Source: a bacterium (GTDB taxonomy: Bacteria > UBP6 > UBA1177). Taken from it: a stretch of 38,940 nt of DNA. The stretch is from positions 1-38,940 of the forward strand of contig JAGCNV010000014.1 in assembly GCA_017645765.1 (NCBI GenBank), given 5' to 3'. The translations under genes were made by a program, and so were the position numbers. Below the pieces are notes generated by a model. It made no database searches and had not been told where the DNA came from. It saw only the letters and a program-made list of their open reading frames with translations. Of this stretch, positions 11,614 to 38,756 are shown in pieces; positions within the stretch are counted from its first letter, which is position 1; each line of letters starts with the position of its first letter.

Positions 11614-11685
11614 TTTTCATCTGAATGTTCGTTAAAATCCTGAGTTTTCCTGATGACTGAGTTTTTGTTAATTATGGAGATCAAA

Positions 11686-14600
11686 ATGAAAAAAGTATTT
11701 TGTTTGTTGTTTTGTATTTTGTGCTCCTCTGGAATTTTATCAGCAAAATTGCTGACGCATCTTGAATTTGAAGAATCATTAGAAGACAGTGTCGGTGACA
11801 ACAACGGAACTTTTACAGGTTCAGATTCAGAAACTTATCAGACAGGTAGAAACGGAAAGGCGCTTGTTTTCAACGGAACAAGTGATTATCTGGAAATAGG
11901 CAACAAGGATTTTGACCCAAGGTATGAAGGTCGCTACTCTATTTCAATGTGGGTTCTTTCCACGGAACAAGCTTCATCAACAAACAACAACAGTTATATC
12001 GGAAAACATACAAGCTCAGGTGATAATGCCATTCTTTTCGGTTATTGGGATGGAAAACTCTCCTTAAGAATAAAAAGCGATCTGGTGCAGATTTCTTCTA
12101 TAAGCGAACCGGTAAACTATTGGGCTCACTATGTTGTTTCCGCGAGAGAAGACAATAATAATGGAACAAGTTCTGTTGTAATTTATAAAAACGGTTCGCA
12201 GGTTTGGAGCGGAACATTGAATGATGTTGCAGGAGATTTCGAGGAAGATGATAAACCATGGGTTTTGGGCATGGATTGGGATTCCGGTAACTTACAAACA
12301 GATTTTTTCAAAGGGAAAATGGATGATGTCCGTATTTACGATTGGAATATTACCGCTGACGAAGTAAAAGAGATATATTACAAGGAGGCAGCAAAAATCC
12401 ATTTGAAAATGGATGATACTTTTAATGCATCAGCAGGTTCTATCTCCGGAAGCGGAGTCGGCGGCACAGTTTTTAAGCAGGGAATGGAAAACCGGTCGGC
12501 ATATTTCGACGGAGTTAATGACTATGTTCAGTTCGGATATGGAGTCACTGATCCTCGTGGTTCTGGAACAACGACACGAAAATATACGATCAGTTTATGG
12601 GTGAAATCTGATGCTCAGGCCTCTTCTTCTAACAACAATTCCTATATAGCCAAACATGATAGCAGTGACGGAGATGTTTTTCGATTCGGCTATTGGAACA
12701 ATAAACTTATTCTCAAAATTGCTGGCAGCTCGGCAGATGTTTCAACAGCAACAGAACCAACTTCATGGACTCATTATGTGATTACCGGAACTGAAAACTT
12801 ATCTGCGTCAACGACTTCGGCAACTGTTTATAAAAATGGTTCTCAAATCTGGACAGGAACAATTTCTGCTGTAATGGGAACTTTCACTTCAAGTTACAAA
12901 CACTGGGTTCTTGGCAGAAGACTAGGTAGCATTGGAGATTATTTTAAAGGTGAAATAGATAATGTCCGTTTTTATGGGAGCGTATTAAATGCAGCGGCAA
13001 TCAAAGCTCTTTACCGTAGTGAGTTCAGCGGGGTAAGATATTGTAATACAGACCAAAATTCGGTTGGATGCACAATCGTAAACGACACTGTTTACGATCT
13101 TGGTCAATATTCATGGTTGATTGTTTCAGGCACTGGGTTTAACGGAATTCCTATTGTTTTTTCTGTATCCCACACAAGTGTTGAATCAATAAAAGTTTCC
13201 GAAGGTTGGGAAACATTTTTGTGTACACAAGCTAATCATCAAGGCACATGCCGTTATTATGATGACGGTTTATATGATTCTACAAATTTGCTTGACTCAT
13301 CGTTTGTAAATAATGTCTATTCTATGACTGTTCAACCATCATCTTTCAGTGCTGCAAAGAAATTTTTCGGTTATAAAAGAGCTAATGCTAACGGTAATTA
13401 TCCTGCAGGATTTGCATATGTTTATGAGCAGATTAGTTTTGTGGCACCTACAAAAACATATTCATCGCGCAGAAGATTGTTTTTGAATAGTTATGACAGA
13501 TATGATTTTTCGAATAATCTGCAAAATTCCATAATTAGAACAAATTACATAAGTTCTGCTGAATTATATGGTGATGTTTATTTGGAGGTTGGAGACAGTA
13601 GCAACGGTAGCAAAGAACTGATGACTTCGCACAATAATTTTTCAAAAGACATGACAAATTATCCTGAGTTGGATTTTAGAACTTTATATCACAACACAAG
13701 TACTGTTGTTTTGCGCGGAAACACCGAACCTGTTGGCAGTGTTGGTTGGTTTTTATCTAATGATTTTCCTGTTGTAGGGCTTCTTTATGCATCTTGTTTA
13801 GAAGGCGTTTCCAAAACACTAACTTACAATGAAACAAGAATAGAGTGTGTCGAATATAACTATCAAAATTTGTCTTTTGAGAATTTTGTTAGTAATGATC
13901 CGGATGAATTTTTTAACAGAATCTATAATGGAAACAGGCAAAAATTTGAAAGATATGCAGATAATTATTCGCTCTTAATGCTTAGCGGGCATGGCTCATA
14001 TACACCTGCCCTCGCATATCCTTTTTCTTCTCCTGAAACTGTTTCTATAAGTATAACCAACAATGAGATGCCGGAAAAACGACAAATCACTATTAACAAT
14101 ACGGAAATCAATCCTTATTCTCAAAAATTGGGTAACCAATACACTCGTTGGATGGAAACCACGGCTTGTCAGTCAATGGGAAATAATGACACAAGTGGGT
14201 CTGAAGTCGGAAATGTTTACTATAATGTCTTGAAAAGACTTAATGGTGTCGGGGGTTATAAAAATGATTCTATTTGGTTTGTCTACGATCATCAATTTGA
14301 TACTCATTGGGAGGATTTGACGCATAACAATAAAACTGTTTCTAAAGCATGGGTGGATTCATGGAGTAAAACATATACCGAGGACTCAGGACGTGACGCT
14401 CGTTTTCTGACTCTTGAAAAATGCAATTGCTCAGATTCAAGTTGCACTGGAACATACATGAAAAATGATTACTTTTACAATGTTTCAACTGGTCCTAAAG
14501 CGCAGAAAACAAATTTATCAGAATTTACGCATTATTGCTTCAGAGATAAGGAATCTCCAAATTTTAATGGTGTTCAAAGAAGCTCAAGCAATTTACCACA

Positions 14601-15285
14601 AGATTATCCTGAAGAATTTGCTGCTTATTCCTATGATTCTTTGCCAAATTATATTATTGAACAAATTTTTGATATAAAAATAGATGAAAACACTGCAAAA
14701 TTCCGCGGAAATGACAGATATAATTACAAAGATGATTATGTGATTGTGAATAGAAAAGATAAAAACATCCAAGCTATCATGAACAGGAAAATGACTTCGT
14801 TCGAAAATGAAAAAGAATCAGAAGATACGATTTGGGACAAATTCAACGAGGCAAAATATATGGCAGAAATGTTAACTTCGGTGCAATTTGAATATGAAGG
14901 AATATCAAGAGATGTTAATGAGGCTTTTGAAGTGGGCGGGAACGGAGAATCGCTAGGTAAAATGATAAATTCCGTTATCTTTGTATTCAGACCAGTTATT
15001 GACGGAATCCCGATTTTTTCAGAAAGCATAGAAGTTGAATACGATGCAGAAGGATTCTATCAGTTGCGCTCGAATGTTCCTTATTCAGTATCTGAGACGA
15101 AAAGAAGTATTGTAAAATCAGAAAATGATGTAGAAACTGAGATGTATTCAACACTTGGAAAATATGAAGAAAAAATAATAGCTTATGTTTTAAACGAAGA
15201 AGGCAAGTTCATTTTATCTGCTGTTGCAAAAGACGACACAAACGAAACATTTTTAAAAATTTCATTGGAGGCTGACCATGATTAA
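11686..15285 (+). CDS. Large secreted LamG-repeat protein with a possible caspase-like (clan CD) domain
   Basis: An exported protein of 1199 residues. A cleavable signal peptide ends near residue 20 (Leu-Ser-Ala). Two LamG/concanavalin-like domains follow (about 22-233 and 238-445), then a Cys-containing segment (about 449-552) loosely like a beta/gamma-crystallin fold. The central region contains the motif M-L-S-G-H-G-S with His769, and about 59 residues later E-T-T-A-C-Q-S with Cys828. This spacing and context resemble the catalytic dyad of clan CD peptidases (gingipain/legumain type) or the related DUF6345 fold. Near 1095-1133 the V-I-D-G-I-P pattern resembles FTP/PepSY inhibitory segments of peptidases. 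The start is ATG 11686 with GGAG (11676-11679); the ATG at 11675 overlaps that site. The gene is clearly more AT-rich than rpoD or nusA, suggesting transfer. LamG is solid, the protease idea is inference. Confidence 0.7.
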   Translation: MKKVFCLLFCILCSSGILSAKLLTHLEFEESLEDSVGDNNGTFTGSDSETYQTGRNGKALVFNGTSDYLEIGNKDFDPRYEGRYSISMWVLSTEQASSTNNNSYIGKHTSSGDNAILFGYWDGKLSLRIKSDLVQISSISEPVNYWAHYVVSAREDNNNGTSSVVIYKNGSQVWSGTLNDVAGDFEEDDKPWVLGMDWDSGNLQTDFFKGKMDDVRIYDWNITADEVKEIYYKEAAKIHLKMDDTFNASAGSISGSGVGGTVFKQGMENRSAYFDGVNDYVQFGYGVTDPRGSGTTTRKYTISLWVKSDAQASSSNNNSYIAKHDSSDGDVFRFGYWNNKLILKIAGSSADVSTATEPTSWTHYVITGTENLSASTTSATVYKNGSQIWTGTISAVMGTFTSSYKHWVLGRRLGSIGDYFKGEIDNVRFYGSVLNAAAIKALYRSEFSGVRYCNTDQNSVGCTIVNDTVYDLGQYSWLIVSGTGFNGIPIVFSVSHTSVESIKVSEGWETFLCTQANHQGTCRYYDDGLYDSTNLLDSSFVNNVYSMTVQPSSFSAAKKFFGYKRANANGNYPAGFAYVYEQISFVAPTKTYSSRRRLFLNSYDRYDFSNNLQNSIIRTNYISSAELYGDVYLEVGDSSNGSKELMTSHNNFSKDMTNYPELDFRTLYHNTSTVVLRGNTEPVGSVGWFLSNDFPVVGLLYASCLEGVSKTLTYNETRIECVEYNYQNLSFENFVSNDPDEFFNRIYNGNRQKFERYADNYSLLMLSGHGSYTPALAYPFSSPETVSISITNNEMPEKRQITINNTEINPYSQKLGNQYTRWMETTACQSMGNNDTSGSEVGNVYYNVLKRLNGVGGYKNDSIWFVYDHQFDTHWEDLTHNNKTVSKAWVDSWSKTYTEDSGRDARFLTLEKCNCSDSSCTGTYMKNDYFYNVSTGPKAQKTNLSEFTHYCFRDKESPNFNGVQRSSSNLPQDYPEEFAAYSYDSLPNYIIEQIFDIKIDENTAKFRGNDRYNYKDDYVIVNRKDKNIQAIMNRKMTSFENEKESEDTIWDKFNEAKYMAEMLTSVQFEYEGISRDVNEAFEVGGNGESLGKMINSVIFVFRPVIDGIPIFSESIEVEYDAEGFYQLRSNVPYSVSETKRSIVKSENDVETEMYSTLGKYEEKIIAYVLNEEGKFILSAVAKDDTNETFLKISLEADHD

Positions 15286-29980: not shown

Positions 29981-32900
29981 ATGAAACGTTTTTTCAGTTT
30001 GATTATGGTTTTTCTTTTGATTTGCATGGTTGTTTCATGCACAAAAAAGAAAAAAGAGGAAAAACCTGCGTATGAAGAGCAGGTGTCAAAAGAAATTTCA
30101 GCCGAAGAGGGGGGAAAAGTCGAAAGTTCCGACGGAAAGACTTCGATCGAGATCCCGGCTGATGCTCTGAATGAAAACACTACCATCACGATGACGATCT
30201 ATGATGCTGAAGGCTATACCGGACCGGAAGGCCAAAAGGTCATCAGTAAAGTCGTTGAATTCGAACCTTCGGGCACAGTTTTCAAAAAACCGGTCATCAT
30301 TACGATGGCGGCTTCCGAAGACGTAGAAGGGCAGGTTTTCTCTGCTGCGGTATACCGCGAGGAAAAAGGCGAATGGAGTTACGATGAGCACGGCGCGTAT
30401 GCAGTTCTTGCCGGCAGAGACGCTGCCGGCGATCCGATCATGCAGAGTGCGGCAGGAGACCCGATCATGCTGAATGCAGCAGGTGACCCGATCATGCAGC
30501 AGGCTGCGGGAGATCCGATAATGATGGCTGCTGCCGGTGATCCGATCATGCTTGCATCGGCTGGAGATCCGATCATGTCGAATGCTGCGGGAGATCCTAT
30601 CATGAACGCGGCTGCGGGAGATCCGATCATGATGACGACAGGTCACTTCACGACTTACACATTTATCACGGTTAAACCGGATGGCACTCCTGTCGAAGAG
30701 CCAGACACTGAATTGCCTGTTAAAGAAGATGACTACGAGCCTTCGGAAACTGATGACGATCCTGCCGGTGAAGATGACGACGATCCGATAGATGACGGCG
30801 ATATTGATGATGTTCCGGAACCCGAAAAAGTTTATTCCAAAGCGATATGCACCGGTCTCAGAACATGCGTAAGCAGCATTGATATGATTATCGACGGACC
30901 TCAGTCTCTGCCAAGGGTAGTGTCAACGGATCAGGAACTCAATCCTTTCGAATGTCCGAAGAAGGGCAGCGATTTTTACGGTCAGGATGCACAGTATGCA
31001 ATCAGAAGATCATGTGTTCCTCAGGATTTTGAAAGACTTCCTAAAGCCGCTGTCACTGCTGATGACGAGGTTTATCAGGAAATAAAGGACAATGTCACCG
31101 GTCTGATCTGGCTTTATACCGGAAGAAGCGGCAGTTTTACCGAAATGTCCGGGCTGTGCAGCGGACTTACTTACGACGGCAGAACATGGAGACTTCCGAC
31201 TCCGAAAGAGTTTATGACGATTGTCGACAGCGATGCAACGGATACTCCTGTTTTCAGGCAGCTTTATTTCCGCGAGTTATTCGGCATGGAGAAAGCATCC
31301 TACTTCTGGACTTCACTTCCGACACTCTATTTTTATAGCGACGGAAGCATCATGCGTGTCAATGAAGAAGAGGGTGGCAGCAACAGCGTTATGTGCGTAA
31401 GCGGCGAGGAATACGGAAAAGCAGGAAACTATACTTCCGAAACGGTTGACGGCGAAGAAGCTATCCGCGATTCTTCGACAAGTCTCCTGTGGCAGAAGAC
31501 TTACGTTTCCGATAAAAGCTGGAAAGAAGCTCTTGAATACTGTGAAAACCTTGAGTATGCAGGTTATACCGACTGGAGACTTCCCAACAAAAACGAGCTT
31601 GTAACGCTTCTTGACTACTCGAAAACCGAAGTTCTTTCATCTTTCCCGGGCATGACTGCGAATGTCTTTGCATCTTCGACACCGCGTCTTTCTTCCGGCG
31701 GAATAAGCGGAAGTATCTGGTCAGTATCAATGAAAGAGGGAAGGATCGATTATGTCCTCTCCGACAACGAAACGGAAGAAGAGGAGATTGGAGAAGTCGA
31801 CGGTCAGGAAGATCCTGAAGGGTCTTCCGGAACGCTTTTCTCTGTCCGCTGTGTCAGAAGCGATCTTGACGATCTGCCGGAAGACGGCATGCCTCTTTGC
31901 AACGAAAAAATCGGATATGCTCCGTGCAGAGATGCGTCAACAGATATAGTCTGGTCGCCGAAAATGCAGCTTTCAGGCAGATATGAGGGCGGGGACGGAA
32001 ACGGAATGTCATGGGCTGATATAGCGAAATCGTGCCGTGAAATGACTTTTAACGGCAAACGCCTGTGGAGAGCTCCTACTATCTCTGAACTCAGAACTCT
32101 GATGAAAAACGACAAACTTAAAACCGGCGGAACATGCAAGGTAACCGACAGTTGTTTTGACATGGAAACATGTTTCGATGAGTCGGAATGTGTCGACGAG
32201 AACGAAGAAGCATTCGAATCGGGTCTTCGCGACTACGGAATTCTTGTTTCCGGCACCGCTGCGGACAACAGCGACCACACTTACGATGCTGCATGGGCGA
32301 TCCATACGACTCATGGTGCACTTTCTGAATTTATTTCCGGCGATACAAGAGAAGTCGCGGCAAGATGCGTTTTTGATGAAACGCTGCCTGAATTTGAATT
32401 TCCGTACACGCAGAATCTGGAAGAAGACAATTACCTTGTCTGGTCTTCCATGTCGGAATCGAAACTTGTATGGTCAGAGGCAGCAAAATACTGCATGGAT
32501 CTTGAAGAAGGCGGTTCGGACAACTGGAGAGTTCCTGCACTGGAAGAACTTGAAAAGCTTGCAGTGATTGACGAAGAATGCGTTGAGGACGGCTGCGCTC
32601 CGGATACAAAAGGTAAGTATTCAGTTTTAGGCGATATTGTCACACTCTGGTCTTCCGGGGATTCAGGTGAGGAAGAAACTCCTTTCTCTCTGATAGATTT
32701 CATGACCGGCAAAACCAATATGTACGGCACTGATGCTTCGGCTTATGTCCGCTGTGTCAGGGCAAAAGGTGAGCCGGAAACCGCTACGGCATTTACATTC
32801 CCGTATGCAGATGAGGAAACCGGACTTCTCTGGTCGGAAGTATCAGAGTCCGAGGTTTATGATTTCGAATCGGCTGAATCGTACTGCAACGGTCTCAATG

Positions 32901-33199
32901 AAGCTGAATACGGCGGAAGAGCGACATGGAGAGTTCCGGATATCAGTGAACTTGAAACACTGATCAGGAGCTGTGAATCTTCTCCGACCGGTGAAATGAC
33001 GGGAGCGGGGAGAATGTGCATCAACTATTCTTTTGAAGGTTATTCCGTTTACGGCGATATGTTCAGGCTTATCTCTTCAACTGTAGAAGAGGGTGACTAC
33101 AGCACTAAGTACTATGAATTCGATTTTGCATCGGGAGAAAAGCTGCTGCCATACTGGCCTGACGGTTATGTCCGCTGCGTAACTTCTCTTGGTGTATAA
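29981..33199 (+). CDS. Giant lipoprotein: ZU5-like domain, AAGDPIM repeats and DUF1566 modules
   Basis: A 1072-residue lipoprotein (lipobox V-V-S-C, Cys20). Residues about 40-110 look like a ZU5 domain (I-P-A-D-A-L followed by beta strands). Residues 148-219 are eight copies of a nine-residue repeat, A-A-G-D-P-I-M-x-x. After T-G-H-F-T-T-Y-T-F and an Asp/Glu linker (about 235-285), five modules with the DUF1566 (Lcl C-terminal-like) pattern follow near 366-418, 491-547, 647-710, 813-863 and 944-999. Each has a W, a conserved Cys and a W-R-x-P motif. DUF1566 is found in surface proteins and phage tail/fimbrial-type ligand-binding domains, so an adhesin or surface-binding role is plausible. AAGGAGG precedes the ATG. 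Its first 230 residues are paralogous to those of the next gene. A hairpin terminator follows at 33213. Confidence 0.85.
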   Translation: MKRFFSLIMVFLLICMVVSCTKKKKEEKPAYEEQVSKEISAEEGGKVESSDGKTSIEIPADALNENTTITMTIYDAEGYTGPEGQKVISKVVEFEPSGTVFKKPVIITMAASEDVEGQVFSAAVYREEKGEWSYDEHGAYAVLAGRDAAGDPIMQSAAGDPIMLNAAGDPIMQQAAGDPIMMAAAGDPIMLASAGDPIMSNAAGDPIMNAAAGDPIMMTTGHFTTYTFITVKPDGTPVEEPDTELPVKEDDYEPSETDDDPAGEDDDDPIDDGDIDDVPEPEKVYSKAICTGLRTCVSSIDMIIDGPQSLPRVVSTDQELNPFECPKKGSDFYGQDAQYAIRRSCVPQDFERLPKAAVTADDEVYQEIKDNVTGLIWLYTGRSGSFTEMSGLCSGLTYDGRTWRLPTPKEFMTIVDSDATDTPVFRQLYFRELFGMEKASYFWTSLPTLYFYSDGSIMRVNEEEGGSNSVMCVSGEEYGKAGNYTSETVDGEEAIRDSSTSLLWQKTYVSDKSWKEALEYCENLEYAGYTDWRLPNKNELVTLLDYSKTEVLSSFPGMTANVFASSTPRLSSGGISGSIWSVSMKEGRIDYVLSDNETEEEEIGEVDGQEDPEGSSGTLFSVRCVRSDLDDLPEDGMPLCNEKIGYAPCRDASTDIVWSPKMQLSGRYEGGDGNGMSWADIAKSCREMTFNGKRLWRAPTISELRTLMKNDKLKTGGTCKVTDSCFDMETCFDESECVDENEEAFESGLRDYGILVSGTAADNSDHTYDAAWAIHTTHGALSEFISGDTREVAARCVFDETLPEFEFPYTQNLEEDNYLVWSSMSESKLVWSEAAKYCMDLEEGGSDNWRVPALEELEKLAVIDEECVEDGCAPDTKGKYSVLGDIVTLWSSGDSGEEETPFSLIDFMTGKTNMYGTDASAYVRCVRAKGEPETATAFTFPYADEETGLLWSEVSESEVYDFESAESYCNGLNEAEYGGRATWRVPDISELETLIRSCESSPTGEMTGAGRMCINYSFEGYSVYGDMFRLISSTVEEGDYSTKYYEFDFASGEKLLPYWPDGYVRCVTSLGV
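30422..30637 (+). repeat. Eight-copy 27-base coding repeat (AAGDPIMxx)
   Basis: Eight consecutive 27-base units each encode A-A-G-D-P-I-M plus two variable residues (QS, LN, QQ, MA, LA, SN, NA, MT); the sixth has Ser-Ala in place of Ala-Ala. Codons differ between copies (for example GGCGAT, GGAGAC and GGTGAC for Gly-Asp), so the amino-acid motif is kept while the DNA has diverged. A matching array is at 33717-33932. Confidence 0.95.
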
Positions 33200-33212
33200 G
33201 TAAAGTTGATTG

Positions 33213-33269
33213 ACCTCATCTCTAACCCCTCTCCACCGTGGAGGGGGGAACAATCGGTGAGGTTTTTTT
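33213..33269 (+). terminator. Nested inverted repeat with T-run (terminator, possibly REP-like)
   Basis: An inner hairpin has arms CCCCTCTCCA (33226-33235) and TGGAGGGGGG (33239-33248) around a three-base loop, with one G-U pair. An outer pair, ACCTCA (33213-33218) and TGAGGT (33258-33263), encloses it and runs into seven T (33263-33269). This is a strong rho-independent terminator shape between the two giant genes. The arrangement also resembles widespread CCCCTCTCC palindromic repeats known from many genomes. The next ATG is 12 bases downstream, so the following gene needs read-through or a promoter I cannot see. Confidence 0.7.
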
Positions 33270-33281
33270 CGGAGGTTTTTT

Positions 33282-36200
33282 ATGAAGCGCATTTTTACTT
33301 TGGTTTTGGTTGTTTTTTTGGTTGTTCTTGTTGCATCTTGCGGCGACGAGAAAAAAAAGGATGTCGTTAAGGAGAAGGTAACGCAGGAGGTTTCTTCCGA
33401 AGAAGGCGCAACTGTCAAGACTTCGGATGAATCAGTTGCCGTCGATATTCCAAGCGGCGCTCTTGAAGGTAATACGACTATCACGATGACGGTTTATGAA
33501 TCTTCGCACCATGCTACGGCTGAAGGCGAACAGGTCATGAGCCAGGTCGTTGAGTTCGAACCGAGCGGTACGATTTTCAAAAAGCCCATCATCATTACGA
33601 TGAAAAGTACAGAAAACATAAAGAATAAAGTTGTCACAGCAGCTGTTTACAACGAGGCAAAGGGCGAATGGAGCTACAATGAGCACGGTGCGTACGCAGT
33701 TCTTACCGGACAAGACGCGGCAGGTGATCCGATCATGCAGAGTGCGGCAGGCGATCCTATCATGCTGAATGCTGCTGGTGACCCGATAATGATGAGTGCT
33801 GCGGGAGATCCGATAATGATGGCTGCCGCAGGCGACCCGATCATGCTTGCTTCTGCCGGAGATCCGATCATGACCAATGCTGCGGGTGATCCTATCATGA
33901 ATGCGGCGGCAGGTGATCCTATCATGATGACTACAGGTCACTTCACGGCTTACACATTCATCGCGCTTGGTCCGAAAGAACCTGTTGAAGTGCCGGATGA
34001 TGCTGACGATAAAGACGATGAGGATAAAGATGACATCGATGACGTTGATGACGTGGACGATGCTGATGAAGATATATACGTTCCGGAATGCGGAAACGGT
34101 AAAGTTGAAGAAGGCGAAGAATGCGACAAGGGTTCAGAAAACGGCAAGACCGAATGTGCTTACAGTGAGACATCCTGCCAGGTTTGTACTGATGACTGCC
34201 AGATCACTGAAGGAAACACTTCTTTCTGCGGCGACGAAGTAAAGGATACCGCAAACGGCGAAGAGTGTGACAACGGCTTCAGCAACGGCATCATTAACTG
34301 TGCTTACGGTGACGAGAACTGCACTGTCTGCACTGCTGACTGCAAGGTTGCTGACGGAACTACTTCTTTCTGCGGCGACGGGATCGTCGACGAAGATGTC
34401 GAGGACTGCGACGACGGCGCTAATAACGGAAAATACGGTTACTGCAACGCTGACTGCAACGGTCTGGCTCCGCGCTGCGGCGACGACTATGTAAATGAAG
34501 AATACGGCGAAAAATGCGACGACGGCGCACTCAACGGAACTTACGGTTACTGCAATACAACATGCAGCGGTCTGGCGGCTCACTGCGGCGACGGAAATAT
34601 CGATACCGCAAACGGCGAAAAGTGCGACAACGGCGAGAATAACGGAAATACCGACTGCGCTTACGGAGAAACAAGCTGTACGGTCTGCTCGTGGAACTGT
34701 CAGCCGGAAGAGGGTTATGCTTCATACTGCGGAGACGGACTTGTCGATGAAGATCATGGCGAAGCCTGCGACGACGCGTCTGGAAACGGCAGAACAGACT
34801 GCGAATACGGCGATGAGAGCTGCACGCTCTGCAGCAGTAACTGCCAGCCGGTTCAGGGTGCAACTTCCTTCTGCGGCGACAGCAGAGTTGACAATGAAAA
34901 CGGAGAAAAATGCGATAACGGCACAGATAACGGACAGATATTGAACTGCACTTACGGTGAGACCGGATGTACGCTCTGCAACGGTGACTGCCAGCCGTTT
35001 GAAGGCAATGTTTCCTTCTGCGGCGACGGTATGATCGACGAGGCAAACGGCGAAGCATGCGACAAGGCTGATCCTCAGGTCGGTGACAGAGAGGGAACCG
35101 GCAACAGATGCTCCGACGACTGCACAGTCAACTGTTTCGAGCACGCTACATGGAACGGTACGGAATGTGTTCCCGACACGATGGAAAGCGAGTGCGAAGG
35201 ACTTCCGGACAACGCGCAGTGGAACACAGTTCCGTCAATTACCCAGACCTGGAGCGGCGAAACATGGCTTCCGGTAACAGACGGAGTTTACAATGAAGAG
35301 GGAAGCACCAAAGAGTGCCGTTTCAAATGCAAGGAAAACTATAATTGGGATGTCGAGAATGGACTCTGCGTAGCTGCAACCAAAGAGGCTGACTGCTCTG
35401 AAATTCCTGCAAACGCGCAGTGGAACACAGTTCCGAGAATTATACAGACATGGTCAGGTGAAGAATGGCTTCCGTCGGCAACTTCAGTTTACAGTGTCGA
35501 CGACAGCACCGACGAGTGCTTCTTCAAATGCAAGGAAAATTACGAGTGGAAAGACAATGCCTGTGTAGCTTCGATCAGAGAAGAAGTCGAGTGCGAAGAC
35601 CTTCCGGACAACGCACAGTGGAACCATTCCGGAAAGATTACTCAGACCTGGAGCGGTGAAGCATGGCTTCCGTCGGAAACTGCTTCCTACAACACAAATC
35701 CCGGTGAAACTGTTGACTGCAGTTTCAAATGCAAAGATAACTATAACTGGAATGAAAATGATAGAGTCTGCGTAGCTGCAACCCGGGAAAATGTCGATTG
35801 CGGAGACCTTCCTGCAAACGCGCAGTGGAACCATTCAGGAAAGATTACTCAGACATGGAGCGGTGAAGAATGGCTTCCGTCGGTAACTCCTTTCTACGAT
35901 GCAGAACCCGACGAAACTGTTGATTGCAGTTTCAAATGCAAGGAAAATTATGAGTGGAATATAAGTGATGAAGTCTGCGTAGCTAAAACCAGAAATGAAG
36001 AGTGCACAGATCTTCCTGCAAACGCGCAGTGGAACACGACTGATTCAATCACTCAGACATGGTCGGGCGAAGAATGGCTTCCTGCGTTAAGCGGAGTCTA
36101 CAACGAAGAGGCAAGTGAAGAAGAATGCCGCTTCAAATGTAAGGAAAATTACGAATGGAACAATGCTTCGGCATCCTGCAAAGCTCAGACAAAACAGGAA

Positions 36201-38756
36201 AACTGCACAGGTCTTCCTGCAAACGCGCAGTGGAACACGACTGGTTCAATCACTCAGACATGGAGCGGTGAAGAATGGCTTCCGGTAACAGACGGAGTTT
36301 ACAATGAAGAGGGAAGCACAAAGGAATGTCGTTTCAAATGCAAGGAAAACTATAACTGGAATGATGATACTGAAGCTTGTGTAGCTGCAACCAGACCGGC
36401 TGACTGCTCCGAACCTCCTGAAAACGCAGTGCGGAACACGGCTACGTCGATCACTCAGACATGGTCGGGTGAAGAATGGCTTCCGTCGTCAACTTCAGTT
36501 TACAGTGTCGACGACAGCACCGAAGAGTGCTTCTTCAAATGCAAGGAAAATTACGAGTGGAAAGACAATGCCTGTGTAGCTTCGACTCAGGAAGATATTG
36601 ATTGCGAAGACCTTCCGGACAACGCACATTGGAACCATTCAGGAAAGATAACTCAGACCTGGAGCGGCGAAGCATGGCTTCCTTCGGCAACGGCTTCCTA
36701 CAACGCAAATCCGGGAGAAACTGTTGATTGCAGCTTCAAATGCAATGAAAACTATAACTGGAATGCTAATGGCGGAGTATGCGTAGCAGCAACCCAGCCG
36801 GCTACTTGCTCCGAACCTCCTGCAAATGCAGAGCGGAACACGGCTACGTCAATCACCCAGACATGGAACGGTGAAGAATGGCTTCCGTCGGCAACTTCAG
36901 TTTACAGCGATGAGGCAAGCACCGAAGAATGCTTCTTCAAATGCAAGGAAAATTATAATTGGAATGCCGGTGATGAAATCTGCGTAGCTGCAACCAGAGA
37001 GGAAAACTGCCCAGAACCTCCTGCAAATGCAGAGAGGAACATAGCTGAGTCAATCACTCAGACATGGAGCGGTGAAGCATGGCTTCCGGCAACAACTTTA
37101 GTTTACAACGAAGAGGCAAGCGAAGAAGAATGCCGCTTCAAATGCAAGGAAAACTACGAGTGGAGCAATGCTTCGGCATCCTGCGTAGCTAAAACCAGAA
37201 GGGAAAACTGCTCCGAGCCTCCTGCAAATGCAGAGTGGAACACAGTTTCGGCGATCACTCAGACCTGGAGCGGTGAAGCATGGCTTCCGTCAACAGACTC
37301 TGTTTACAGCGAAGCGGCAAGCACCGAAGAGTGCCGTTTCAAATGCAGTGAAAACTATAATTGGAATGACAAGACTGAAGCTTGCGTAGCTGCGACCAGA
37401 GAGGAAAACTGCCCCGAACCTCCTGCAAATGCAGATAGGAACACGGCTGTGTCAATCACTCAGACATGGAGCGGTGAAGAATGGCTTCCGTCAGTAACTT
37501 TAGTTTACAGCGAAACGGCAAGTACTGAAGAATGCTTCTTCAAATGCAAGGAAAATTACGAGTGGAGTGACGGATCGTGTGTTGCTCAAACCAGAGAAGA
37601 AAACTGCACAAATCTTCCTCCGAACGCAGAGTGGAACACGGTTTGGTCGATCACTCAGACATGGTCTGGCGAAGCATGGCTTCCGACTGAAACCGGTTCC
37701 TACAACGAAGCTGAAAGCACCGAAGAGTGTCACTTCAAATGTTCCGAAGGATACGAATGGAACGCGAATACTTCCACGTGCGATCCTGAACCCCGCTGCG
37801 GTGACGGCATACTCAACGGCGATGAAGTCTGTGACGACGGTGACGAACACAACGGTCAGTATGGTTTCTGCTACGAAGGTTGCACCGGATGTGACGACGA
37901 GTTCCATGTCGAGAACGGTCACTGTGTTTCGAACTCCGGAGAGTACACTGAATGTGAAGGAGAGCTTCCGGATTATGCTGAATGGGTAAACGACACCTAT
38001 TATCGTTACTGGGTAAATGAAGGCGATCTCGGCGATGCTACCGGATACTGGCATGTGGCTGAACCGACATACAGTTATCAGGATGACGGTACCGACTGTT
38101 CCTTCAGATGCCTTGACGGCTTCGAGTGGAATGAAAATCTCCAAAAGTGCGAATGTCCTCAGGATCGTCAGCTCAACGACACTGACCCGGATGATCCGTA
38201 TTGTGCTCTTACAGGAGAAAATGTCAGAGATTGCAGTGCTAAACCTGAAAATTCGGTCTGGACAGACAACGGACAGCACGGTCAGTATATTTTCAGCATG
38301 ACACATCAGGTAACAACGCAGTATGCCGGCGGCGACACCTGTGACTGCTGCTTCGACTGCGCTGAGGGTTACCACTATCTTGATGATACCGGTATATGCG
38401 AACAGGACGACGATCCGTGTGATGAACTTCAGTGTGAAGAAATCGATAACAGTGACGGAAACTGCTCAATTGAAAACGGGGAACCTTACTGCGGTTGTCT
38501 TGAGAACTATGAATGGGATGCAGACGAATATATCTGCTCTCCGGCAACACAGTCGGTATATTGCGACGGGCTTCCCGATAATGCATCATATAACTTTGGC
38601 GGATATATAACGCAGACATGGGACGGCGAAGAGTGGTATCCGTCAGCTGACGCTTTCTACAGCGAAGAGATGCCGCCGATGGAAGATTGCAGCTTCCAGT
38701 GCGTCGAAAACTACTATTGGAATGTACAATTGAACGCATGTATGGAAATGGAGTAA
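33282..38756 (+). CDS. Giant Cys-rich lipoprotein: ZU5-like domain, AAGDPIM repeats, DUF4215-like repeats and a 13-module tandem array
   Basis: A 1824-residue lipoprotein (lipobox V-A-S-C, Cys20; SD GGAGG). Residues 1-230 parallel the previous protein: ZU5-like domain, eight AAGDPIM repeats (146-217) and a T-G-H-F-T-A-Y-T-F segment. After a pure Asp/Glu/Lys/Val linker (about 235-265) come eight Cys-rich repeats from Cys270 (C-G-D-G ... G-E-x-C-D), matching the DUF4215/Myxococcus cysteine-rich type. Then 13 tandem modules of 65-69 residues (638-1505) each carry four Cys and an I-T-Q-T-W-S-G-E core. A ninth Cys-rich repeat and three divergent modules end the protein. About 130 cysteines imply an exported, disulfide-stabilised filament or stalk. 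Function is unknown; adhesion or prey/host contact is inference. A hairpin terminator and an IS element follow. Confidence 0.88.
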   Translation: MKRIFTLVLVVFLVVLVASCGDEKKKDVVKEKVTQEVSSEEGATVKTSDESVAVDIPSGALEGNTTITMTVYESSHHATAEGEQVMSQVVEFEPSGTIFKKPIIITMKSTENIKNKVVTAAVYNEAKGEWSYNEHGAYAVLTGQDAAGDPIMQSAAGDPIMLNAAGDPIMMSAAGDPIMMAAAGDPIMLASAGDPIMTNAAGDPIMNAAAGDPIMMTTGHFTAYTFIALGPKEPVEVPDDADDKDDEDKDDIDDVDDVDDADEDIYVPECGNGKVEEGEECDKGSENGKTECAYSETSCQVCTDDCQITEGNTSFCGDEVKDTANGEECDNGFSNGIINCAYGDENCTVCTADCKVADGTTSFCGDGIVDEDVEDCDDGANNGKYGYCNADCNGLAPRCGDDYVNEEYGEKCDDGALNGTYGYCNTTCSGLAAHCGDGNIDTANGEKCDNGENNGNTDCAYGETSCTVCSWNCQPEEGYASYCGDGLVDEDHGEACDDASGNGRTDCEYGDESCTLCSSNCQPVQGATSFCGDSRVDNENGEKCDNGTDNGQILNCTYGETGCTLCNGDCQPFEGNVSFCGDGMIDEANGEACDKADPQVGDREGTGNRCSDDCTVNCFEHATWNGTECVPDTMESECEGLPDNAQWNTVPSITQTWSGETWLPVTDGVYNEEGSTKECRFKCKENYNWDVENGLCVAATKEADCSEIPANAQWNTVPRIIQTWSGEEWLPSATSVYSVDDSTDECFFKCKENYEWKDNACVASIREEVECEDLPDNAQWNHSGKITQTWSGEAWLPSETASYNTNPGETVDCSFKCKDNYNWNENDRVCVAATRENVDCGDLPANAQWNHSGKITQTWSGEEWLPSVTPFYDAEPDETVDCSFKCKENYEWNISDEVCVAKTRNEECTDLPANAQWNTTDSITQTWSGEEWLPALSGVYNEEASEEECRFKCKENYEWNNASASCKAQTKQENCTGLPANAQWNTTGSITQTWSGEEWLPVTDGVYNEEGSTKECRFKCKENYNWNDDTEACVAATRPADCSEPPENAVRNTATSITQTWSGEEWLPSSTSVYSVDDSTEECFFKCKENYEWKDNACVASTQEDIDCEDLPDNAHWNHSGKITQTWSGEAWLPSATASYNANPGETVDCSFKCNENYNWNANGGVCVAATQPATCSEPPANAERNTATSITQTWNGEEWLPSATSVYSDEASTEECFFKCKENYNWNAGDEICVAATREENCPEPPANAERNIAESITQTWSGEAWLPATTLVYNEEASEEECRFKCKENYEWSNASASCVAKTRRENCSEPPANAEWNTVSAITQTWSGEAWLPSTDSVYSEAASTEECRFKCSENYNWNDKTEACVAATREENCPEPPANADRNTAVSITQTWSGEEWLPSVTLVYSETASTEECFFKCKENYEWSDGSCVAQTREENCTNLPPNAEWNTVWSITQTWSGEAWLPTETGSYNEAESTEECHFKCSEGYEWNANTSTCDPEPRCGDGILNGDEVCDDGDEHNGQYGFCYEGCTGCDDEFHVENGHCVSNSGEYTECEGELPDYAEWVNDTYYRYWVNEGDLGDATGYWHVAEPTYSYQDDGTDCSFRCLDGFEWNENLQKCECPQDRQLNDTDPDDPYCALTGENVRDCSAKPENSVWTDNGQHGQYIFSMTHQVTTQYAGGDTCDCCFDCAEGYHYLDDTGICEQDDDPCDELQCEEIDNSDGNCSIENGEPYCGCLENYEWDADEYICSPATQSVYCDGLPDNASYNFGGYITQTWDGEEWYPSADAFYSEEMPPMEDCSFQCVENYYWNVQLNACMEME
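33717..33932 (+). repeat. Eight-copy 27-base coding repeat (AAGDPIMxx), second array
   Basis: The variable residues after each A-A-G-D-P-I-M are QS, LN, MS, MA, LA, TN, NA and MT. They match the first array copy for copy at six of eight positions, and both arrays have the Ser-Ala variant at copy six. Copy number, unit length and order are the same as at 30422-30637, so the whole array was inherited as a unit with the N-terminal domain. Confidence 0.95.
34089..35134 (+). repeat. Eight DUF4215-like Cys-rich repeats
   Basis: Eight copies of a 35-50 residue unit begin C-G-(N/D)-(G/D/E/S) and contain G-E-x-C-D, N-G, then either C-A-Y-G-x-x-x-C-x-V-C or Y-G-Y-C-N, and a closing C. A ninth, isolated copy starts at 37797. 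The unit matches my knowledge of the 'Myxococcus cysteine-rich repeat' (TIGR02232 / DUF4215), which is common in exported myxobacterial proteins. Confidence 0.85.
35193..37796 (+). repeat. Tandem array of 13 modules with five-module higher-order period
   Basis: Module starts (first Cys codon) are 35193, 35394, 35592, 35799, 36003, 36204, 36405, 36603, 36807, 37008, 37209, 37410 and 37605. Lengths are 67, 66, 69, 68, 67, then 67, 66, 68, 67, 67, then 67, 65 and the last. Core motifs are N-A-x-W-N or N-A-E-R-N, I-T-Q-T-W-S-G-E-x-W-L-P, E-C-x-F-K-C and N-Y-x-W. Modules 1-3 and 5 recur as 6-8 and 10 with near-identical variable parts, giving a 1011-base higher-order unit. Confidence 0.93.

Follow-up and report, generated by a model that had tools for sequence, protein, structure and literature searches.

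GDPIM, a short repeat in the ZU5 loop of modular lipoproteins and in other exported proteins of one uncultured bacterial order

The ZU5 superfamily (PF00791) brings together domains of ankyrin, UNC5b, PIDD, the FIIND of CARD8/NLRP1 and GAIN in a common fold. Some of its members cleave themselves, PIDD at HF/S and CARD8/NLRP1 at SF/S, the slash marking the cut (PMC3210808). In bacteria, a self-cleaving N-terminal ZU5 domain was proposed in 2012 to stand at the base of polymorphic toxins and large surface proteins with diverse C-terminal modules, which it would release; the available part of that account describes no GDPIM array, the feature that sets the present family apart (PMC3482391). Among short motifs, the GDPH of VWD domains is cleaved at its Asp-Pro bond (PMC10880436). 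RTX nonapeptides follow the consensus GGxGxDxUx, in which Asp6 ligates calcium. LPXTG, the dockerin and the T9SS CTD are short conserved sorting or docking signals on unrelated exported proteins.

Two lipoproteins with a ZU5 front end

The window, that is, the whole stretch of 38,940 nucleotides analysed here, encodes two large lipoproteins on its forward strand, which share an N-terminal adapter and differ behind it. Their features are as follows.

29981..33199, + strand: lipoprotein 1, 1072 aa, with lipobox, ZU5 domain carrying a GDPIM array, acidic linker and five Lcl_C modules (ORF, sequence, Pfam)
29981..30040, + strand: lipoprotein 1 signal peptide, lipobox VVSC, Cys20 (sequence; Cys invariant in 71 relatives)
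30071..30673, + strand: lipoprotein 1 ZU5 domain including the inserted array and last strand, Pfam core 30104-30355 (Pfam, AlphaFold, Foldseek to ankyrin ZU5)
30422..30631, + strand: lipoprotein 1 array of eight AAGDPIM-type units, period 27 nt, before the last ZU5 strand
30641..30652, + strand: lipoprotein 1 GHFT, the HF[S/T] motif and possible self-cleavage site (H and F invariant in 71 relatives)
30680..30835, + strand: lipoprotein 1 acidic linker (sequence)
31070..33196, + strand: lipoprotein 1, five Lcl_C / DUF1566 modules (Pfam PF07603, E 1.9e-73, 5 stretches)
33282..38756, + strand: lipoprotein 2, 1824 aa, front end as in lipoprotein 1, C-terminus Cys-rich
33282..33341, + strand: lipoprotein 2 signal peptide, lipobox VASC, Cys20 (sequence)
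33393..33629, + strand: lipoprotein 2 ZU5 Pfam core (Pfam)
33717..33926, + strand: lipoprotein 2 array of eight AAGDPIM-type units, likewise spaced by 27 nt
33936..33947, + strand: lipoprotein 2 GHFT motif (sequence)
34083..35140, + strand: lipoprotein 2 DUF4215-like CGDG...CD units (sequence; Pfam PF13948 elsewhere in the protein)
35211..37685, + strand: lipoprotein 2 Cys-rich repeat of ~67 aa (~201 nt), QTWSGEEWLP, about 12-14 tandem copies (TRF)

The two adapters are 68% identical across residues 1-243. ORFs, sequence and Pfam bear out the shared order given in the first-pass annotation, namely lipobox, ZU5 domain with EFEPSGT, the lead-in EWSYxEHGAYAVL, eight GDPIM units, TGHFTxYTF and an acidic linker. 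The ~67-aa repeat of lipoprotein 2 matches no Pfam family; single copies related to it occur in other lipoproteins of the same genome. Long antisense ORFs run over both arrays on the minus strand (30098-30646, 182 aa; 33432-33941, 169 aa), which the recurring codons probably explain. Elsewhere in the window (11653-15285), a 1210-aa protein with two Laminin_G_3 stretches lies near the conserved housekeeping genes rimP, nusA, infB and rbfA.

Pfam analysis revealed ZU5 (PF00791) in both lipoproteins, with E-values of 2e-7 and 3e-7 and scores of 31.6 and 31.1 bits, above the curated cut-off of 21 bits. AlphaFold models, computed with 71 relatives, display a confident ZU5 fold outside the signal peptide and the array. 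AlphaFold is often unreliable on repeats, and the array (residues 157-220, pLDDT about 33) was modelled as a loop between the strand 152-155 and the last strand 225-231. Structural similarity search using Foldseek gave ankyrin ZU5 domains (probability 1.00) and UNC5b as best matches of the adapter model, and a relative with a hexapeptide array also matched UNC5b, in addition to the GAIN domains of BAI3 and CD97. Taken together, the profile match, the model and the structural hits make the adapter a lipobox followed by one known domain, ZU5, and not the undescribed unit that the first-pass annotation had seen in it; that annotation had itself named membership in a single known domain as an outcome that would refute its reading. 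The lead-in, array and GHF segment, listed there as separate parts, are predicted to form a single ZU5 domain with the array inserted before the last strand. The view that no system of this architecture had been described also fell, as N-terminal ZU5 domains with diverse modules appear in the available part of the 2012 work (PMC3482391).

The GHF[S/T] segment directly follows the array, and its H and F are kept in all 71 aligned rows. Among 123 carriers the motif reads HFS in 59, HFT in 59, HYS in 4 and NFS in 1, so that 118 of them have the PIDD-like pattern [HS][FL][ST] (PMC3210808), whose Ser/Thr nucleophile stands ahead of the last strand, C-terminal in the domain as it is in PIDD. The adapter differs from the superfamily members named above in its tandem GDPIM array just before HF[S/T] and in its lipoprotein anchor. 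Because of the likeness of the motif to PIDD and CARD8/NLRP1, together with the 2012 ZU5 proposal, we infer that the adapter may cleave itself between HF and the following Ser or Thr, although HF[S/T] is by itself no proof of cleavage. The ZU5 part is a compact module, which makes the bacterial self-cleaving surface proteins proposed by Zhang and colleagues in 2012 directly testable.

Variable cargo behind one front end

Beyond the linker, the two C-termini are unrelated, five Lcl_C modules in one protein and DUF4215-type units with Cys-rich repeats in the other, and Pfam and sequence agree here with the first reading (five DUF1566-like modules versus Cys-rich arrays). Cargo of relatives was classed by Pfam plus a local profile; BLAST single-linkage clusters of the C-termini were dropped, as they merged the Cys-rich modules together. 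At least eight kinds were found, including Lcl_C, a C-type lectin with disintegrin-like, MopE and TSP3 repeats, SBBP and RCC1 propellers, DUF6273, EGF and several orphan Cys-rich types. No toxin domain occurs among the cargos scanned. As binding regions, the role given to them in the first-pass annotation, the cargos are putative.

On an adapter tree of 110 rows, the cargo label switches at least 14 times and is constant inside several subfamilies. The adapter of lipoprotein 2 groups with one whose Cys-rich cargo matches its own, and two adapters that carry Lcl_C join this pair next. Listing what follows the adapter in homologues, as the first-pass annotation had suggested, yielded many different C-termini behind one front end, and for this reason the display architecture, an anchor with variable cargo, is real at the level of sequence. 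The same annotation had called the cargo regions interchangeable, and this part is weak, because Lcl_C/DUF1566 cargo makes up 63 of the 98 classified proteins and cargo is stable within several subfamilies; inside a subfamily it is usually conserved.

Conservation and range of the GDPIM motif

The own genome of the window contains 52 GDPIM motifs, of which six lipoproteins share 51 and a nucleotidase has one, against 0 matches for the reversed pattern, so the repeat is not due to chance. Across the order, a carrier survey that did not exhaust every genome gave about 845 exact units in about 138 ORFs of 25 genomes, with 1 to 21 copies per protein and a period nearly always of 6 or 9 aa. All 14 other same-genus genomes examined contain the front end or the repeats (1-21 matches each), and front-end matches were also found in the same family and order, with none in the sister family f4 or in more distant genomes. 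Paired units were present in 23 of the 25 genomes of the order, compared to none of 3 from the sister family, none of about 358 other genomes and no viral contig. Among the genomes searched, GDPIM is confined to one uncultured order. A phage or plasmid origin was discarded, the matches there being limited to RTX-like composition on plasmids. Pfam and NCBIfam hold no family for the motif, the PDB holds no credible structure of the array, and a literature search for 'GDPIM' returned no relevant paper. The named genomes are metagenome assemblies (ruminant), the source from which members of the own genus are mostly known; flaws at repeats and contig ends are possible, and independent studies agree.

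Selection acts on the peptide. The units are written in 68 distinct codings, with codons free at G, D, P and I, while only about 22 one-letter variants were found and pN/pS between units of one array is about 0.04. Moreover, 843 of the 844 DNA matches are in frame with ORFs of 150 aa or more; two of these 843 look like antisense coincidences. Internal ribosome starts (GGAG...ATG) were rejected, because most units have GGC, GGT or GGG as glycine codon, which destroys GGAG.

The same counts bear on the idea that a selfish or mobile DNA element of 18 or 27 nt has spread by in-frame insertion among exported proteins. In its favor, the own-genome 5'-nucleotidase (G000:C34:23055-23999) alone has a 23-aa in-frame insert with GGDPIM directly after the signal peptide, which is missing from same-genus orthologues (L210-L219) that are 89-98% identical; the 18-nt core of this insert is identical to one unit in a giant lipoprotein, and copy number varies widely among proteins. 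However, the units are alike in protein and not in DNA, their codons are saturated, out-of-frame or intergenic copies are essentially absent, and a DNA search of the own genome gave no second copy of the rest of the insert. We regard such an element as very improbable, and a palindromic or minisatellite form was rejected, as it calls for conserved DNA in any frame or between genes.

Most of the copies, by a great majority, sit at one place, the ZU5 loop. The first-pass annotation had treated the repeat as a component of the adapter; it is indeed present there, but it extends through the order in unrelated exported proteins. Pfam identified A2M, NosD-like β-helix, FGE-sulfatase, dockerin/PKD and 5'-nucleotidase proteins as non-adapter carriers, of which the A2M-like, NosD-like and FGE-sulfatase-type ones are lipoproteins. 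The giant carriers are lipoproteins of 1,260-4,100 aa with a divergent ZU5-like domain, and complete carriers nearly all begin with a lipoprotein signal. Two exported proteins without a Pfam match (L036, L174) have GDPIM between a coiled N-terminal part and a catalytic-looking part, and could be read as transglutaminase-like. In the A2M-like lipoproteins L160, L155, L154 and L164, one to three units occupy one loop upstream of MG2. This loop reads SGEPIASGSPLM (a TGxPI-like turn) or SGNPV in some genera, and one, two or three SGDPIM or a single AGDPIM in others, where the choice of S or A matches the lineage.

The residue before GDPIM (position -1) follows the lineage as well. It is Q in 31 of 31 units of f2, S in 77 of 79 units of f1 genera 2-4 and A in 84 of 88 units of f3; in the own genus it is mostly A or G, but one genome has S at this position and two have M or L. 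This tracking holds separately in four homologous families (ZU5, giant, macroglobulin and FGE). Lineage predicts the residue for 114 of 139 proteins and protein family for 93 of 139, and no shuffle out of 2000 reached the observed value, a permutation result that is only indicative because related proteins are not independent. For Ser at -1, TCN as well as AGY codons are used, which are more than one step apart.

Proposed role of GDPIM

Comparison with described motifs showed partial likeness to each. The RTX nonapeptide and the array share a nine-residue period, a G-D pair and a hydrophobic residue, and weak tblastn matches were obtained. However, GDPIM units have Pro at the position of the calcium-ligating Asp6, lack the GG pair and also occur in six-residue and single-copy forms; membership was rejected, since AAGDPIMxx set against GGAGDDILQ departs from the GGxGxD consensus. 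GDPH of VWD domains has the same Gly-Asp-Pro core, whereas GDPIM is tandem, occurs in many unrelated contexts and has neither the His nor a VWD domain; Ile follows Pro in all exact units, and Pfam found no VWD match, which excluded it from the GDPH autocleavage group.

The shared GD-P core, cut at Asp-Pro in GDPH (PMC10880436), and the strictness of the sequence would fit a modification or cleavage site, at which Asp-Pro would be cleaved or form a cross-link, as it does in VWD domains, or a dedicated enzyme would modify another residue. By contrast, GDPH is cut inside one folded domain, while GDPIM is found in six or more unrelated contexts; cuts at eight sites, redundant as they are, would detach the cargo, and no enzyme was found. 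We consider this explanation improbable, and a smaller rival than the next.

The chief rival is a structural β-turn repeat, in which a GDP turn and an IM strand would build a small β stack or a spacer that lengthens the ZU5 loop, free of any partner. The great majority of copies in that loop makes such a role possible. The periods of 6 and 9 aa both divide 18, degenerate units such as DGKEVTV preserve the period, and AlphaFold gives order to the final units of a hexapeptide array (pLDDT 78-90), with short bridges at IM. Against it, the nonapeptide array of the window was predicted to be disordered; swaps among I, V and L or between M and L, which a structural repeat should tolerate, are almost absent; one to three units also occur in A2M, β-helix and nucleotidase proteins; and residue -1 tracks the lineage across unrelated proteins. 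On balance, this reading appears unlikely, though less so than an Asp-Pro site.

We propose that GDPIM is an extracytoplasmic recognition tag read by a trans-acting partner, a reading to which we give about an even chance and in which both the partner and the docking role are putative. It draws on the strictness of the motif, its independence of context, its extracytoplasmic location, its tandem expansion and the dialect at residue -1. A near letter-perfect pentapeptide in unrelated folded proteins, with free codons and a lineage-specific neighbor, is the signature of sequence-specific recognition. Like LPXTG, the dockerin and the T9SS CTD, GDPIM is short, conserved and carried by unrelated exported proteins; it differs in being internal and tandem, in loops of folded domains, with a lineage-specific residue -1. 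The ZU5 front end adds a new member to a known kind, and GDPIM might work like these other sorting and docking tags. Somewhat more tentatively, the five residues might form a private, order-wide code that, with its lineage-specific -1, serves as a multivalent address label on surface proteins for a co-evolved, undescribed receptor or enzyme outside the cytoplasm.

In the proposed recognition mechanism, a membrane-anchored ZU5 domain would bear tandem units of the lineage residue plus GDPIM in its last hairpin loop and display the variable C-terminal cargo, which HF[S/T] may release by self-cleavage. A putative binding protein or modifying enzyme would recognize GDPIM in trans and hold, sort or modify its carriers at the cell surface, where several copies in a row would increase avidity. 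The crowding of copies in the ZU5 loop, the order predicted for the hexapeptide form and the looseness of residue -1 within the own genus, where A, G, S, M and L all occur, speak against a tag. Gene neighborhoods revealed no recognizer gene common across lineages, conserved neighbors reflecting genus-level synteny only. Finding the reader of GDPIM would uncover a new route by which bacterial surface proteins are addressed or assembled.

One same-genus genome, G013 (97% complete), contains zero GDPIM. Its ZU5-Lcl_C lipoprotein has an unrelated loop and GHLG at the place of GHF[S/T], and it retains a nucleotidase and a macroglobulin that is free of the motif. This pattern is compatible with loss of a recognizer, and other causes are possible. 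Public labels for the assemblies with this protein family differ (UBP6, 'Spirochaetales', 'bacterium'), and of 'uncultured Spirochaetales' (RUG11946, RUG12558; L042, L046 and others) and UBP6, one label is probably wrong.
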